From: Solirubrobacteraceae bacterium | GTDB taxonomy: Bacteria; Actinomycetota; Thermoleophilia; Solirubrobacterales; Solirubrobacteraceae | Assembly (NCBI GenBank): GCA_030447505.1 | Contig: JAUJOT010000006.1 | Location: 124,001-188,000 of the forward strand | Length of the DNA: 64,000 bases | Direction of reading: 5' to 3' | In this document: piece by piece, positions 6,529 through 11,611 of the stretch | Numbering within the stretch: position 1 is the first letter of the stretch | Layout: each line of letters begins with the position of its first letter | Translations under genes and position numbers: made by a program | The notes under the pieces: generated by a model | The model's database searches: none | Seen by the model: the letters and a program-made list of their open reading frames with translations, nothing else | What the model was told of the DNA's origin: nothing

Positions 6529-9283
6529 ATGAAGGCCAAGCCCGAGGGCACGACCCATCAGCCGAGCCGCGGCCGCCTCGCGGCGGCGTTGTGCACCGCC
6601 GGCGTCGTGGCGATCGCGATGAGCGGGAACCTCATCGGCGCCGACGCCCAGGACGCGCCGAGCGTTGCTGGCGAGCAGGCCGCCGTGCCGCCCGCGCAGA
6701 GCCGAGCGGCCAGCAGCGCGATCAAGGTCTCGGAAACGACCACGACGACGCCGACCACGACGTCCGCCGCCGAGCCGACGCAGGCGCCCCCGACGCCCGC
6801 GTCTGACACGTCTGCGACTGCCGGGACGCCGCCCCCGCAGACGGCCGCCCCGCAGGCTGACCCCGCCGCGCCCGCAGCTCCCGCCAGCCCGCCGCGCCCG
6901 CCGCGCCCGCAGCCCCCGCCGCGCCCCCGCGCCCGCAGCCCCCGCCGAGCCGCCCGCGCCCGCAGCCCCCGCCGATCCCGCGCCGCCCGCCGCACCCGCC
7001 GCTCCGACGAAGCCGGCCGACCCGCTGCCGCTCGGCGGATTCGCGGGCCCCGCGGAGCGCAAGGAGCGCGGCAGCGTCGACTGCCCGAAGACGACCGCCG
7101 CGAAGCCCACCCGTAACGCTAAGCCTCAGGTCGAGTCTCATGCTAGGGGCGGCGCCGACGGAGCGAAGGCCTCCGCCGAGCGATGCAACGCGACTTCAAA
7201 GCGCGCGCCCAGCTCGCGTCGCACGGTCTCGCCGGACCGCGGCCGGCAGCGCGACCGCGCGCCGCGGAAGGCGCTGCGCAACGCGCAGGGCGTCCCCACG
7301 CTGTCCAACCCGACGACGTCGCTCGCGCTGCCCGGCGCGGTTCCGGTCGGCGTTCCGAACTTCTTCATCGACAAGTTCCGCATCCCGCCGTTCCTGCTGC
7401 CGATCTACCAGGCCGCCGGCATCCAGTACGGCATCCGCTGGGAGGTCCTGGCCGCGATCAACGAGATCGAGACCGACTACGGCCGCAACCTCAACATCTC
7501 CTCGGCGGGGGCGCTGGGATGGATGCAGTTCATGCCGGCAACCTGGAAGGCGTACGGGACCGACGCCAACCGCGACGGGCGCAAGGACCCCTTCAACCCC
7601 GTCGACGCGATCTTCGCGGCCGCCCGCTACCTGCGCGCCGCCGGCGCCGACCAGGACCTGCGGCGCGCGATCTTCGCCTACAACCACGCCGACTGGTACG
7701 TCGAGTCGGTGCTCATGCGCGCCCGCCTGATCGGAGGCCTTCCGAGCGACCTCGTCGGCTCGCTGAACGGTCTGACGCAGGGCCACTTCCCCGTCTTCGC
7801 CAAGGCCCGCTACGCCGACGACCTCTCCGAGCGCGCGATCGGCCGCCGCGCCGCCGCGGGTCAGAACGTCGCCAACCCGGTCGAGTCCGAGGTCACGCGC
7901 CGAGGCATCGACATCTTCGCGAAGGCCGGCTCCCCCGCGATCGCCGTCCAGGACGGGACGATCGTCGCCGTCGGCAGGAGCAAGCGGCTGGGCAACTTCG
8001 TGCGCCTGCGCGACGTCTACGGCAACACCTACACCTACGCGCAGCTCAAGAAGGTCGCCCGGCACGTGCCGGTGCCGAAGCGCAAGACCCAGAGCAAGGC
8101 CTCGATCGCCAAGGAGCTCGCGCTTCCCAAGCGCGACCCGAAGCCCACCCAGCCTGCTTCGGCCGGACGGGCGACAAGGAAGGGTGAGGTACCCGGCGCC
8201 GCGCGCAAGGCCGCCGCCGCGCTGACGCAGCCCGCCGAGCGGGCGGCTGCGCCGGGGGGGTTCGGCAAGGAGCGCCTCTTCGCCAACCCCTCGCGCCGCA
8301 ACGCGTTCGCCAGCGGCGGCGCCCAGCAGATCCTCGAGGCCGAGTCGAGGCTGCCTGCCGGCGCAAGCCTCAAGTCCTACTTCACGGCTGTCCACGGTCT
8401 TGACCCGGAAGACGTCGTGCTCAAGCCGATGATCGCCGGGCGCAGGGTGATCGCCGGCACGATCCTCGGGCGCATCGGCCAGCTCGAGCAGGAGATCTCG
8501 CCGCGCCTGCACTTCGAGATCCGGCCCGCCGGCCGCGGCGCGCCGCGGATCGACCCCAAGCCGATCCTCGACGGGTGGAAGCTGCTCGAGTCGACGGCGA
8601 TCTATCGCGCGCAGGGCCGTAACGCGCTCGTCGGCCCCGATGCCAGCCGCGCCTCGATCGGGCAGATCCTGCTGATGAGCAAGGAGTCGCTGGCACAGCG
8701 CGTGCTCGCCAACCCGCGCATCGAGATCTACTCCTGCGGACGGCGTGACATCGAGGCCGGCGGCGTCGACCGCCGCGTGCTGGCGACGCTCGAGTTCCTC
8801 GCCTCGAGCGGCCTGAAGCCGACGATCACCTCGCTGACCTGCGGCCACGGCTACTACACCGCCGGCGGCAACGTCTCGGCGCACTCGTCCGGCAACGCGG
8901 TCGACATCGCGAAGATCAACGGGATCTCGATCCTCGGCCACCAGGGCGAGGGCTCGATCACCGACATCACGATCCGCCGCCTGCTGACGCTGCAGGGCAC
9001 GACCAAGCCCAACCAGATCATCAGCCTGATGAGCTACGACGGCACCGACAACACGCTCGCGATGAGCGACCACGCCGACCACATCCACGTCGGCTTCCGG
9101 CCGCAGTACGAGCAGGGCACGCCCGGCTCCAGGCAGCTCGACGCCGTCCTCAAGCCGTCGCAGTGGATCAAGCTCATCGACCGGCTCGCCAGGATCGACA
9201 ACCCGACGGTCGCCGTGAAGCCTTCGAAGTACGCGATCCGCGTGCCGGTGCCGCGGGCATCGAGCGCGCACCGCGGGGAGTAG
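6529..9283 (+). CDS. secreted three-domain peptidoglycan hydrolase (SLT / degenerate M23 / M15-like), frame break in linker
   Basis: Translation starts at ATG 6529 with a signal-peptide-like segment (LAAALCTAGVVAIAMSG) and a Thr/Pro/Ala-rich linker, but that frame shifts by a net +1 between about 6890 and 6965, where the Pro/Ala repeat continues first in frame 3 and then in frame 2 to the stop at 9283. The rest contains an SLT transglycosylase domain (~7390-7720: INEIETDYG with the catalytic Glu, GALGWMQFMPATW), a LytM/M23-like domain (~7890-8560) that has lost zinc ligands (RRGIDIF and RLHFEI where HxGxD and HLHFE are expected), and an M15-like domain (~8650-9110) with SAHSSGNAVDI and DHADHIHVGF. 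The break could be a sequencing error in a simple repeat, a true mutation, or slippage. Apart from it, coding looks intact and well conserved. Confidence 0.75.
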
Positions 9284-9317: not shown

Positions 9318-10067
9318 CTACAGCCTCGGCCGCAGCTCGTTCCAGAGCGCCTCGTAGGCCCGCACGGCGCGTCCGCGCGGGGCGAAGCCCGCAAGCGCGC
9401 GGCGCTGGATCGCCATCTTCTCGACGTCGCTGGCCGCCGGGATCGCCGCCTGCAGCACGCACCCGTCGCTGCTCGCCGCGACCTCGTCGATGATCTTCCG
9501 ATGAAGCGCCTTGCGCCCGTCGACCATCGAGAAGAACGCGAGGATCCGCGGTCGCGGTCCTGCGACGTCCTGCGCGACGAAGCGCTGCAGCTGCTCGAAG
9601 GTGCGCAGCGACAGCGGCGTCGGGATGAGCGGCACGAGCAGCGCGTCGGCCGCCGCGAAGACGCTCTCGGACGCCAGCGAGATCGCCGGCGGGCAGTCGA
9701 GGAAGACGTAGTCGTACTGCTCTGCGAGCGGTGCGATGACGCGCTGCAGGCCGCGCGTCGGGCGCTTCGTCGCGTCGAGCGCGAGGTCCATCTTCCGATA
9801 GGAGAAGTCCGCCGGCAGCAGGTCCAGGCGCTCGTGGTCAGATCCCTTCAGCAGCGCCGCGGGGTCGCTCTTTCCCCGCACGAGCCTCGAACCGCCGCCG
9901 CGCACCTTCGGCTTGATCCGCAGCAGGTAGCTTGCGGCGCCCTGCGGGTCGAGGTCCCACAGCAGTACGCGCGCGCCCTGCTCGGCCGCCGTCCATGCGA
10001 GGTTGACCGCGGCGGACGTCTTGCCGACGCCGCCCTTGATGTTGTAGAGCGCGACGACCGGCGTCAT
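9318..10067 (-). CDS. ParA/MinD-family ATPase paired with a CHAD protein
   Basis: A 249-residue ParA-type P-loop ATPase. It has the deviant Walker A box KGGVGKTSAAVNLA at residues ~11-24, Walker A' in LLWDLDPQG, and Walker B in DYVFLDCPP. Such proteins position plasmids, chromosome origins or protein/polymer cargo by ATP-driven binding to the nucleoid. The start overlaps the TGA of the upstream CYTH-CHAD gene by four bases. There is no parB or DNA-binding partner nearby, so this is unlikely to be the chromosome-partition ParA. I infer that its cargo is connected with the CHAD protein, for example polyphosphate granules. Confidence 0.85.
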   Translation of the reverse strand: MTPVVALYNIKGGVGKTSAAVNLAWTAAEQGARVLLWDLDPQGAASYLLRIKPKVRGGGSRLVRGKSDPAALLKGSDHERLDLLPADFSYRKMDLALDATKRPTRGLQRVIAPLAEQYDYVFLDCPPAISLASESVFAAADALLVPLIPTPLSLRTFEQLQRFVAQDVAGPRPRILAFFSMVDGRKALHRKIIDEVAASSDGCVLQAAIPAASDVEKMAIQRRALAGFAPRGRAVRAYEALWNELRPRL

Positions 10068-11611
10068 CCGAACGTGCGGGCGACGATCCTGCGCTGCGGC
10101 TTGGCCGCGAACTGCGCAAAGCTCTCGGCGAACTCCGCGCGCGCCTGCTGCTGCTGCTCGGCAAGTCGCTCGACGAGGACGCCCATCGCCATCAGGGCGG
10201 CCGAACCGCCCTCCATCGCCGCGACCTCGTCGCCCACTGCGCGCAGCAGGTCGGCCTGCACCTCGCGATCCTGAAAGCGCCCGAGCACGTCCTGCAGCCC
10301 CTTCAGGGTCGACACCATCGGCTTGACGACCTCGGGCGGATAGAGCGACGAGAAGAACTCGAGCAGGTAGCGCAGCTCCTTGCCCTTCTTGCGCAGGTCG
10401 TGCAGCGCCTCGTGCGGGCTGCCGTCGTCGATCGCGCGACCGATCTTCACCATCCGACGGTAGACCGCGCCGATCCGCTCAGCCGCGACGTCAGCGATCG
10501 GCCGCGCCGCGTCCGGACGGTCTGCCTCGGGCGCCCCGGCGAGCGCGTCGAGGTAATCCGCCCAGTTGCGAATCAGTGCGCGCGTCCGCTCCGAGCGCAG
10601 GCCGGCGACCATCTTCCTGCGCTCGGCGACGAGCCGCTGCTCGAGCAGCCGGCGCAGCGGCGCCACGTCCGCGGCCGCGCCGTCGCCGAGCCCCGCCGCC
10701 AGCTCGCCGAACTCGAGCAGTTGTACGTCGAGGTCGCGGGTCGGTCCCGTCAGCACCTGCAACTCGCGGAAGCCGTCGCGAAACACCCGCAGCGGCTCGG
10801 GCGCGAAGACCCCGCGAAGCTCGCGCTGCAGCGCCCGCGAGCGTCGCACCGCGACGCGCAGATCGTGCAGGAACTCGCTGTCGACGTCGGTCAGGGCGCC
10901 GGGCGTGTTGGCCTCGATGACGTCGAGCAGGCGGCGCAGGATGGTGACGGCGGCGCGGTCGGCGCGCTCGGCGCGATCAAGCGCGATGCGCAGCTTCGAG
11001 GACGTGCCGCCGACGGGCCTGCCGAGCACCTCGACGGCATCGTCGAGCACCGGCCGTGGCGCGTGCTGCAGGCCGAGCTCGCGGGTCAGCAGCGCGAGCA
11101 CGCGATCGAAGTCGACGTCGTATCCGCGCACGCCGACGACGTGCAGCCGCGGGCGCAGCGCGATCTTCTCGGCTCCCGCCGCCAGGGCGGCCGACTGCTC
11201 GCCGCGCAGCCGCACGACGATCTTGCCGAGGTCGTCGAGGACGTTGATCGGCAGCAGCCGGCTGCGCACGCGCGCGACGGGGGTCAGCGCGCGCAGCTCG
11301 AGGATCGGCGCCAGGCGGTCGCGAAGCGCTCCCGCGGGCAGGTCCTCGAGCAGCAGCCGCCGCGCCGCGCGCGGATGCTCGGCGCCCGCCTGCTCGGCAT
11401 GCGTCGCGGCGTCGATCAGGACCAGGCGGCCGCCCGCCTCGGCCAGCGCGAGCCCAGCCCGCTGCAGGCGGCCGTCGAACGACTCCCAGAACGTGCGGTC
11501 GATCGAATAGGCGCGCTCCGTCACGACCGGGACGAGCGCCGCAAGGCGATCCGCCGCAGCCGAGCCGCTCATGCCGTCGGGGAGCAGCAGCTGGGTGCCG
11601 CGGGCGTCCAT
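10064..11611 (-). CDS. CYTH-CHAD domain protein
   Basis: A 515-residue protein. The N-terminal ~200 residues look like a divergent CYTH/triphosphate-tunnel-like region (RLVLIDAATHAEQ, RVRSRLLPINVLDDLGKIV), and residues ~230-490 are a CHAD domain: helical, with the paired motifs DSEFLHDLRVAVRRSRALQR and EALHDLRKKGKELRYLLEFF whose conserved His, Arg and Lys residues bind inorganic polyphosphate. CHAD proteins are known to associate with polyphosphate granules. The gene is the first of a two-gene operon with a ParA-type ATPase. The ATG at 11611 gives a complete N-terminal domain. The CHAD call is strong; the CYTH part is more degenerate and may lack enzyme activity. Confidence 0.85.
   Translation of the reverse strand: MDARGTQLLLPDGMSGSAAADRLAALVPVVTERAYSIDRTFWESFDGRLQRAGLALAEAGGRLVLIDAATHAEQAGAEHPRAARRLLLEDLPAGALRDRLAPILELRALTPVARVRSRLLPINVLDDLGKIVVRLRGEQSAALAAGAEKIALRPRLHVVGVRGYDVDFDRVLALLTRELGLQHAPRPVLDDAVEVLGRPVGGTSSKLRIALDRAERADRAAVTILRRLLDVIEANTPGALTDVDSEFLHDLRVAVRRSRALQRELRGVFAPEPLRVFRDGFRELQVLTGPTRDLDVQLLEFGELAAGLGDGAAADVAPLRRLLEQRLVAERRKMVAGLRSERTRALIRNWADYLDALAGAPEADRPDAARPIADVAAERIGAVYRRMVKIGRAIDDGSPHEALHDLRKKGKELRYLLEFFSSLYPPEVVKPMVSTLKGLQDVLGRFQDREVQADLLRAVGDEVAAMEGGSAALMAMGVLVERLAEQQQQARAEFAESFAQFAAKPQRRIVARTFG

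Follow-up and report, generated by a model that had tools for sequence, protein, structure and literature searches.

A gene for a CHAD-domain protein and an overlapping gene for a ParA-type ATPase, found together in a genome of the Solirubrobacteraceae, form a pair that recurs in several bacterial phyla. The best reading of this pair, which we consider reasonably probable, is a ParA system that resembles McdA in its logic and positions or partitions polyphosphate granules with the CHAD protein as its adaptor. Conservation of the pair, its co-inheritance in genomes, and its link to polyphosphate genes strengthened the granule-positioning interpretation, which stops short of being proven. If the pair works as proposed, an ATP-driven system for positioning polyphosphate granules exists in several phyla, and a cargo could be assigned to many ParA genes for which none is known; with just two genes involved, the idea also lends itself to testing in hosts that can be cultivated.

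Organization of the gene pair

In the window, the whole stretch of 64,000 nucleotides that was analyzed, the two genes overlap by 4 nt on the minus strand, the TGA stop codon of the CHAD gene lying inside an ATGA that holds the ParA start codon (Table 1). An earlier sequence-only reading had described a CHAD protein gene overlapping a ParA-type ATPase gene, and both reading frames were recovered where it had placed them, each supported by Pfam. The GC content per codon position is 0.72/0.48/0.93 for the ParA gene and 0.81/0.47/0.92 for the CHAD gene, and neither protein reaches the cut-off of any NCBIfam family. Six other proteins of the window were scanned with Pfam and identified as a response regulator, two cell-wall enzymes (SLT + M23 and SLT + VanY), an NAD-dependent epimerase, a NUDIX protein, and a cupredoxin-like protein, with no polyphosphate gene among the six. 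The contig also carries a PPK1 gene, which lies outside the window at a distance of about 58 kb, and the genome holds a second CHAD gene. A large plus-strand ORF of the window, at 6665-9283, encodes a lytic transglycosylase domain together with an M23 peptidase domain; its start codon is approximate.

Table 1. Positions of the ParA and CHAD genes in the window and of the regions discussed within them
Feature	Position	Strand	Evidence
ParA-type ATPase gene, 249 aa	9318..10067	-	ORF; Pfam AAA_31; AlphaFold model nearest Soj/ParA structures
Basic loop of the ParA subfamily, residues 43-76, R-x-K-P-K-x-K/R-G-G	9840..9941	-	Net-charge comparison
CYTH-like + CHAD protein gene, 515 aa	10064..11611	-	ORF; Pfam CHAD; model pLDDT 95; ATGA junction
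CYTH/triphosphate-tunnel fold domain (predicted), residues 1-201, without ExExK	11009..11611	-	Model alignment
Long CHAD domain, residues 204-515, putative polyphosphate-binding H249, R252, R256, R292	10067..11002	-	Match to 6qv7/6qva
C-terminal stretch beyond the Pfam CHAD match, residues 458-515, candidate ParA contact	10067..10240	-	Residue conservation

The ParA-type ATPase

The ATPase of the window matches the Pfam family AAA_31 (E 7e-32) and carries the deviant Walker A sequence KGGVGKT at residues 11-17. The same motif is present in 80 of 80 family loci (the best 80 of 520), a count that is partly so by construction because one of the search patterns was IKGGVGKT. The AlphaFold model of the protein has a mean pLDDT of 84.9, and the solved folds nearest to it are the Soj/ParA structures 9a6n, 8ray, and 2bek, with TM scores of 0.85-0.89 (0.87 for 2bek) and 27-30% identity. 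Motif and predicted fold together place the protein among the deviant-Walker ParA/MinD ATPases.

Orthologues of this protein (E<1e-79) were found in 11 of 61 genomes, comprising seven of the genus, the window genome included, and four others of the family; below them is a gap, the next matches reaching only 1e-23 to 1e-24. In a maximum-likelihood tree of 89 ParA proteins, for which every second of the 80 loci was sampled, 67 subfamily members were split by a 100/100 branch from 22 other ParAs, all of which came from one and the same order. The subfamily also possesses a basic loop: the 34 residues that follow the DxDPQ motif have a mean net charge of +5.7 (range 1 to 10) in the 80 family loci (the best 80 of 520), compared with -2.3 (-7 to 0) for the same stretch in the 17 readable sequences of the 22 other ParAs. 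In the AlphaFold model, this loop (RxKPKxKGG) has low pLDDT.

The CHAD protein

The CHAD family (PF05235) is matched by residues 224-457 of the partner protein with a Pfam E value of 9e-55, and the AlphaFold model of the entire protein has a mean pLDDT of 95. In the model, the CHAD domain superimposes on the CHAD protein of C. tepidum both in its free form (6qv7; Z 35.8, rmsd 1.9, 312 aligned, 32% identity) and in complex with polyphosphate (6qva; Z 34.9). Mutations of SsCHAD that lower polyphosphate binding affect residues equated, in the consulted portion of the paper, with His253, Arg256, Arg260, and Arg296 of CtCHAD (PMC6537752). These align with H249, R252, R256, and R292 of the window protein, which are identical in 55 of 55 aligned CHAD proteins. 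Sequence and model thus point to a CHAD-domain (phosin) fold with conserved basic residues that putatively bind polyphosphate, and the earlier statement that CHAD binds polyphosphate has, as a prediction of binding, good support from the resemblance to a solved complex and from the retention of the binding residues.

The C-terminal stretch beyond the Pfam match is conserved as well, with A475 in 54, G477 in 50, F494 in 55, and F501 in 52 of 55 CHADs. G477, which belongs to an ‘AMG’ motif, is found in 50 of 55 ParA-linked CHADs; of 15 CHADs whose genomes gave no ParA match, a count by eye found it in 6. As a sign that the motif might contact ParA, this contrast is suggestive only, because CHADs without ParA are also more divergent.

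The ExExK motif is the hallmark of CYTH/triphosphate tunnel enzymes. The CYTH label of the sequence-only reading holds for the predicted fold of the N-terminal half, in which residues 1-201 align with 2gfg (VIA-align Z 15.1, rmsd 2.8, 167 aligned) and with AtTTM3 (Z 14.0), but not for the sequence, since residues 1-215 have no Pfam match even at E<10 and ExExK is missing. The motif occurs within the first 70 residues of 0 of 55 relatives, as read from start codons that were picked by script and are in a few cases (e.g., L104) visibly too late, and none is visible in the window protein; an active CYTH enzyme was rejected on this absence. Because the tunnel fold appears in the model and ExExK is missing, the N-terminal domain is described here as CYTH-like and probably not an enzyme. 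A positively charged disordered N-terminus was also sought, and the first 30 residues of 55 CHADs, read from the same script-picked starts, have a mean net charge of -1.3 (-6 to 4); in the model of the window protein, folded structure begins at about residue 5.

Recurrence of the pair at ParA loci

A CHAD gene lies directly upstream of ParA, on the same strand, at all 11 of the orthologues found in the 61 genomes. In a wider scan, nine ParA orthologues were compared with one genome per species using the patterns IKGGVGKT and LLWDLDPQ, and the best 80 of 520 confirmed loci were retained. A CHAD protein is encoded in 59 of these best 80 (of 520), and in 56 of them it stands directly upstream on the same strand with 90 nt or less between the matched domains, kinship among the genomes inflating these as all other counts. 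Loci with CHAD directly upstream of ParA come from Actinomycetota, Pseudomonadota, Myxococcota, and Dormiibacterota. At two loci (L108, L109), a CHAD of generic type is found beside a histidine-phosphatase gene, and at another (L110), CHAD is situated on the other side of ParA, past a PPK1 gene. The 21 of 80 loci without CHAD include four (L043, L051, L068, L082) that end at a contig end just upstream of ParA.

Loss of adjacency is mostly not loss of the partner. Cognate CHAD is absent from the ParA locus in 23 genomes, namely those of the 21 loci without CHAD together with L108 and L109, and a search of the whole genomes recovered a subfamily CHAD elsewhere (E<1e-80) in 19 of the 23; the other four are two Nitrotoga-type genomes with generic CHAD only and two without any CHAD. 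Across 59 pairs, ParA distances correlate with CHAD distances (r 0.75). As a control, the 1.5 kb flanks of 26 other ParA/MinD-type loci from the same order were searched, one of them cut by a contig end upstream (L029), and CHAD was found in none. Chance neighbourhood is ruled out by the upstream CHAD at 11 of 11 orthologues, the co-occurrence in genomes, and this control. Non-conservation of the pair had been put forward as grounds for abandoning the granule proposal; the pair instead recurs across phyla and, when separated, mostly stays within the genome.

A constant third gene beside the pair was not seen among the loci. One candidate, a cluster spanning 37 loci (cluster 4), was rejected, consisting mostly of wrong-frame ORFs over both genes. 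Two small ORFs directly upstream of the pair in the window (12114-11887 and 11884-11666, minus strand; 75 aa and 72 aa) were also dropped as third components; the 75-aa ORF reaches no Pfam family above cut-off, and in tblastn (E<1e-4) it matches no other locus compared except the own-genome copy (L001).

Co-occurrence in genomes sampled without regard to the pair

The co-occurrence analysis proposed in the sequence-only reading was carried out in two groups of genomes, with a clear association in gammaproteobacteria and a weaker one in Actinomycetota. Among 276 gammaproteobacteria, ParA (cut-off E<=1e-50) is present in 39 and the CHAD subfamily in 33, and 23 genomes have both, compared with 4.7 expected (hypergeometric 9e-16). 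The two genes are adjacent and on one strand in all 23. In six of the 16 ParA-only genomes, the gene directly upstream encodes a CHAD of a more divergent type (four of the six were checked with Pfam), and CHAD adjoins ParA in 29 of the 39 ParA genomes and does not in 10. No ParA match was found in 10 of the 33 genomes with the CHAD subfamily.

Among 246 Actinomycetota, the preset cut of E<=1e-40 gave ParA in 15, CHAD in 30, and five shared against 1.8 expected (p 0.024), while a bit-score cut chosen post hoc gave ParA in seven, CHAD in seven, and again five shared (6e-8). The association is therefore weak at the preset threshold and strong only with the post hoc cut. All five genomes with both genes have them adjacent; exceptions include two with ParA and no CHAD subfamily (G073, G088) and two with the CHAD subfamily and no ParA (G189, G148). 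In both groups of genomes, some absences in either gene search may be misses, because at most 8-11 candidates were scored per genome, and of the 34 ParAs in profile A2, 30 are CHAD-linked by their neighbours. A dedicated partner gene stands beside ParA in most loci and is co-inherited with it, more weakly so in Actinomycetota. Matches to the window CHAD occur in 11 of 72,556 plasmid records, none across >80% of the CHAD length.

Link to polyphosphate and phosphate genes

The conserved pair is linked to polyphosphate genes: PPK1 is found in 37 of 39 gammaproteobacterial ParA genomes, the other two having no PPK1 match, and in 130 of 237 others (2e-7). PPK1 is also found in 31 of 33 gammaproteobacterial CHAD genomes and is not specific to ParA, so the link between PPK1 and ParA may run through CHAD. 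In 6 or more of the 39 ParA genomes, PPK1 is no farther than 10 kb from ParA; one of these has a ppk-parA pair (G469, L163:2632-5686), in which the gene preceding a subfamily ParA is PPK1 and CHAD does not adjoin. Genes for ppk1, ppx, phoU, pstS, or sixA-like proteins were detected by homology in 15 of the best 80 (of 520) ParA loci; the queries were identified with Pfam, except for one SixA-like query, a relative of which was checked instead. Where the two genes are separated (19 genomes), five genomes have a pstS-like gene in the vicinity of CHAD, and one, Acidobacteria Mor1, has ppk, ppx, and phoU there. On a Thiodictyon plasmid, a related CHAD is close to pstB/pstS, and the annotation of that stretch shows no ParA.

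Proposed function and alternatives

In the favored mechanism, the CYTH-like/CHAD protein would coat polyphosphate granules by means of its CHAD domain and link them, as partner or adaptor, to the ParA ATPase dedicated to it. The nucleoid would be the matrix that holds ParA dimers in their ATP-bound state. CHAD on a granule would bind these dimers and set off ATP hydrolysis, with release of ParA; granules would in this way move along ParA gradients, become spaced, and pass to both daughter cells, as carboxysomes are through McdA/McdB. By analogy with such systems, we infer contact between CHAD and ParA, stimulation of the ATPase, localization of ParA on the nucleoid, and granules as the cargo. 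The C-terminal CHAD stretch or the basic ParA loop is the candidate for the contact. A variant that seems decidedly unlikely gives polyphosphate itself a place in the ATPase cycle: the basic loop specific to the family, which comes after the Walker A' motif, would touch the polymer presented by CHAD, which would replace or compete with DNA as the ParA matrix. Granules would then, with the same low probability, drive their own spacing in a widespread ParA subfamily that does without a classical partner peptide.

Other functions could keep the same two genes together. Rather than move granules, ParA might position or recruit the PPK1 machinery, or be a regulator that responds to polyphosphate sensed by CHAD; this is unlikely, though it deserves weight, and it predicts a changed number of granules or chain length and not altered spacing as such. 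Its case draws on the closeness of PPK1 to ParA in 6 or more of the 39 gammaproteobacterial ParA genomes, the ppk-parA pair included, and on the phosphate and polyphosphate genes in the vicinity of separated CHAD genes. CHAD is nonetheless the commonest neighbour of ParA: of the best 80 loci (of 520), 56 have it immediately upstream, compared with five that have ppk anywhere. The CYTH-CHAD protein could instead be an enzyme under the control of polyphosphate, either an adenylate cyclase or a polyphosphatase, with ParA a bystander, as in the ‘ACAci’ reading that is in print for Acidithiobacillus (PMC6416229, consulted in part). The predicted CYTH fold of the N-terminal half agrees with such an activity, but ExExK is absent from 55 of 55 relatives and the co-occurrence with ParA in gammaproteobacteria is strong, which leaves it very improbable.

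Shared neighbourhood could also arise with no joint function at all. Operon inertia or co-transfer might keep the genes side by side without a direct mechanism, and kinship, by inflating the counts, favors this, as does the correlation of ParA and CHAD distances, which shared descent alone would produce too. The genes co-occur, however, in 19 of the 23 genomes without cognate CHAD at the ParA locus and adjoin in lineages of several phyla, and we regard this explanation as very improbable. Least probable, and only barely to be credited, is an ordinary chromosome or plasmid partition ParA with CHAD beside it by accident. The Soj-like fold of the ATPase is what such a protein would have, but no ParB domain was found among the six other window proteins scanned, the overlapping neighbour of ParA being CHAD, and three other ParA-type ATPases of the same genome score better against AAA_31 than does the window ParA. 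The subfamily moreover occupies its own branch, as judged with outgroups of one order, and plasmid matches of CHAD are rare and partial. An ordinary ParABS system was rejected on the absence of ParB from the scan, the better-matching ParAs of the genome, and the separate branch.

Relation to known systems

Like the McdA/McdB system for carboxysome positioning, the pair sets the gene of a ParA-type ATPase next to one dedicated to a protein that would bind the cargo, and the McdA structures 6non and 6nop are among the fold matches of the window ParA; here, the partner is a CHAD protein and not McdB, and the proposed cargo is polyphosphate and not a protein shell. The usual signature of partners of ParA/MinD positioning ATPases is a positively charged disordered N-terminus, according to the portion consulted of a Halothiobacillus study (PMC10241942). 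Because this end is on average slightly negative in the 55 CHADs and the window protein is predicted to be folded almost from its start, the analogy with ParA/MinD systems has a gap, and the pair is not filed as a member of the McdAB family. That study assigns five of seven ParA/MinD ATPases (PMC10241942), and the words ‘polyphosphate’ and ‘CHAD’ are absent from its main text. Soj/ParA partition ATPases provide the closest solved folds, yet the window protein differs from them in its separate branch, the reversed charge of its loop after DxDPQ, and the lack of ParB among the neighbours scanned.

On the polyphosphate side, the CHAD protein of C. tepidum (6qv7, 6qva) and the phosins share the long CHAD fold and the conserved putative binding residues, and the paper on the former has no whole-word occurrence of ParA (PMC6537752). 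E. coli YgiF has the same two-domain architecture of CYTH and CHAD (5a60); however, the consulted part of that paper describes it as a TTM enzyme that degrades polyphosphate and whose CHAD is short (PMC6537752), whereas the window protein has a long CHAD and no ExExK. AlgP of Pseudomonas aeruginosa is likewise a factor for polyphosphate granule spacing, in what was available of two sources (PMC9239181, PMC13052382), but it is a histone-H1-like DNA-binding protein and no ATPase. In the sections consulted of a 2025 review, the table of organelle positioning lists AlgP alone for polyphosphate granules, with ATP dependence unknown, and the text allows that further granule-positioning proteins may be undiscovered (PMC13052382).

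The sequence-only reading knew of no firm description of this pair, which is correct for a positioning function and not for the gene neighbourhood. A folD-ppk-parA-CHAD cluster of Acidithiobacillus, containing the same two genes together with ppk, is already in print, and the papers, in the portions consulted, interpret it otherwise, in the context of copper resistance or of nucleotide signalling by an adenylate cyclase, and not of positioning (PMC10892726, PMC6416229). Searches covering mainly open-access journal articles turned up no recognizable proposal that ParA and CHAD position granules.

Other genes beside ParA

Several further neighbours were recorded. At six loci (L048, L050, L052, L057, L070, L084), all gammaproteobacterial and mostly from Methylobacter/Methylococcaceae, a CHAD-less ParA is directly upstream of a gene for a carbohydrate (glycogen-type) phosphorylase, identified from the Pfam match of one of them; this arrangement may be a hint of another storage cargo. 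At L051, L056, L059, L062, L064, and L068, the gene after ParA encodes a D-Tyr-tRNA deacylase (a cluster of seven loci, one Pfam-checked), and in some other loci it encodes an MgtE magnesium transporter (a cluster of five, one Pfam-checked). In the window genome itself, the gene of a Soj-like ParA ATPase adjoins an ORF with tubulin/FtsZ domains (L003; G000:C3:40195-43713).
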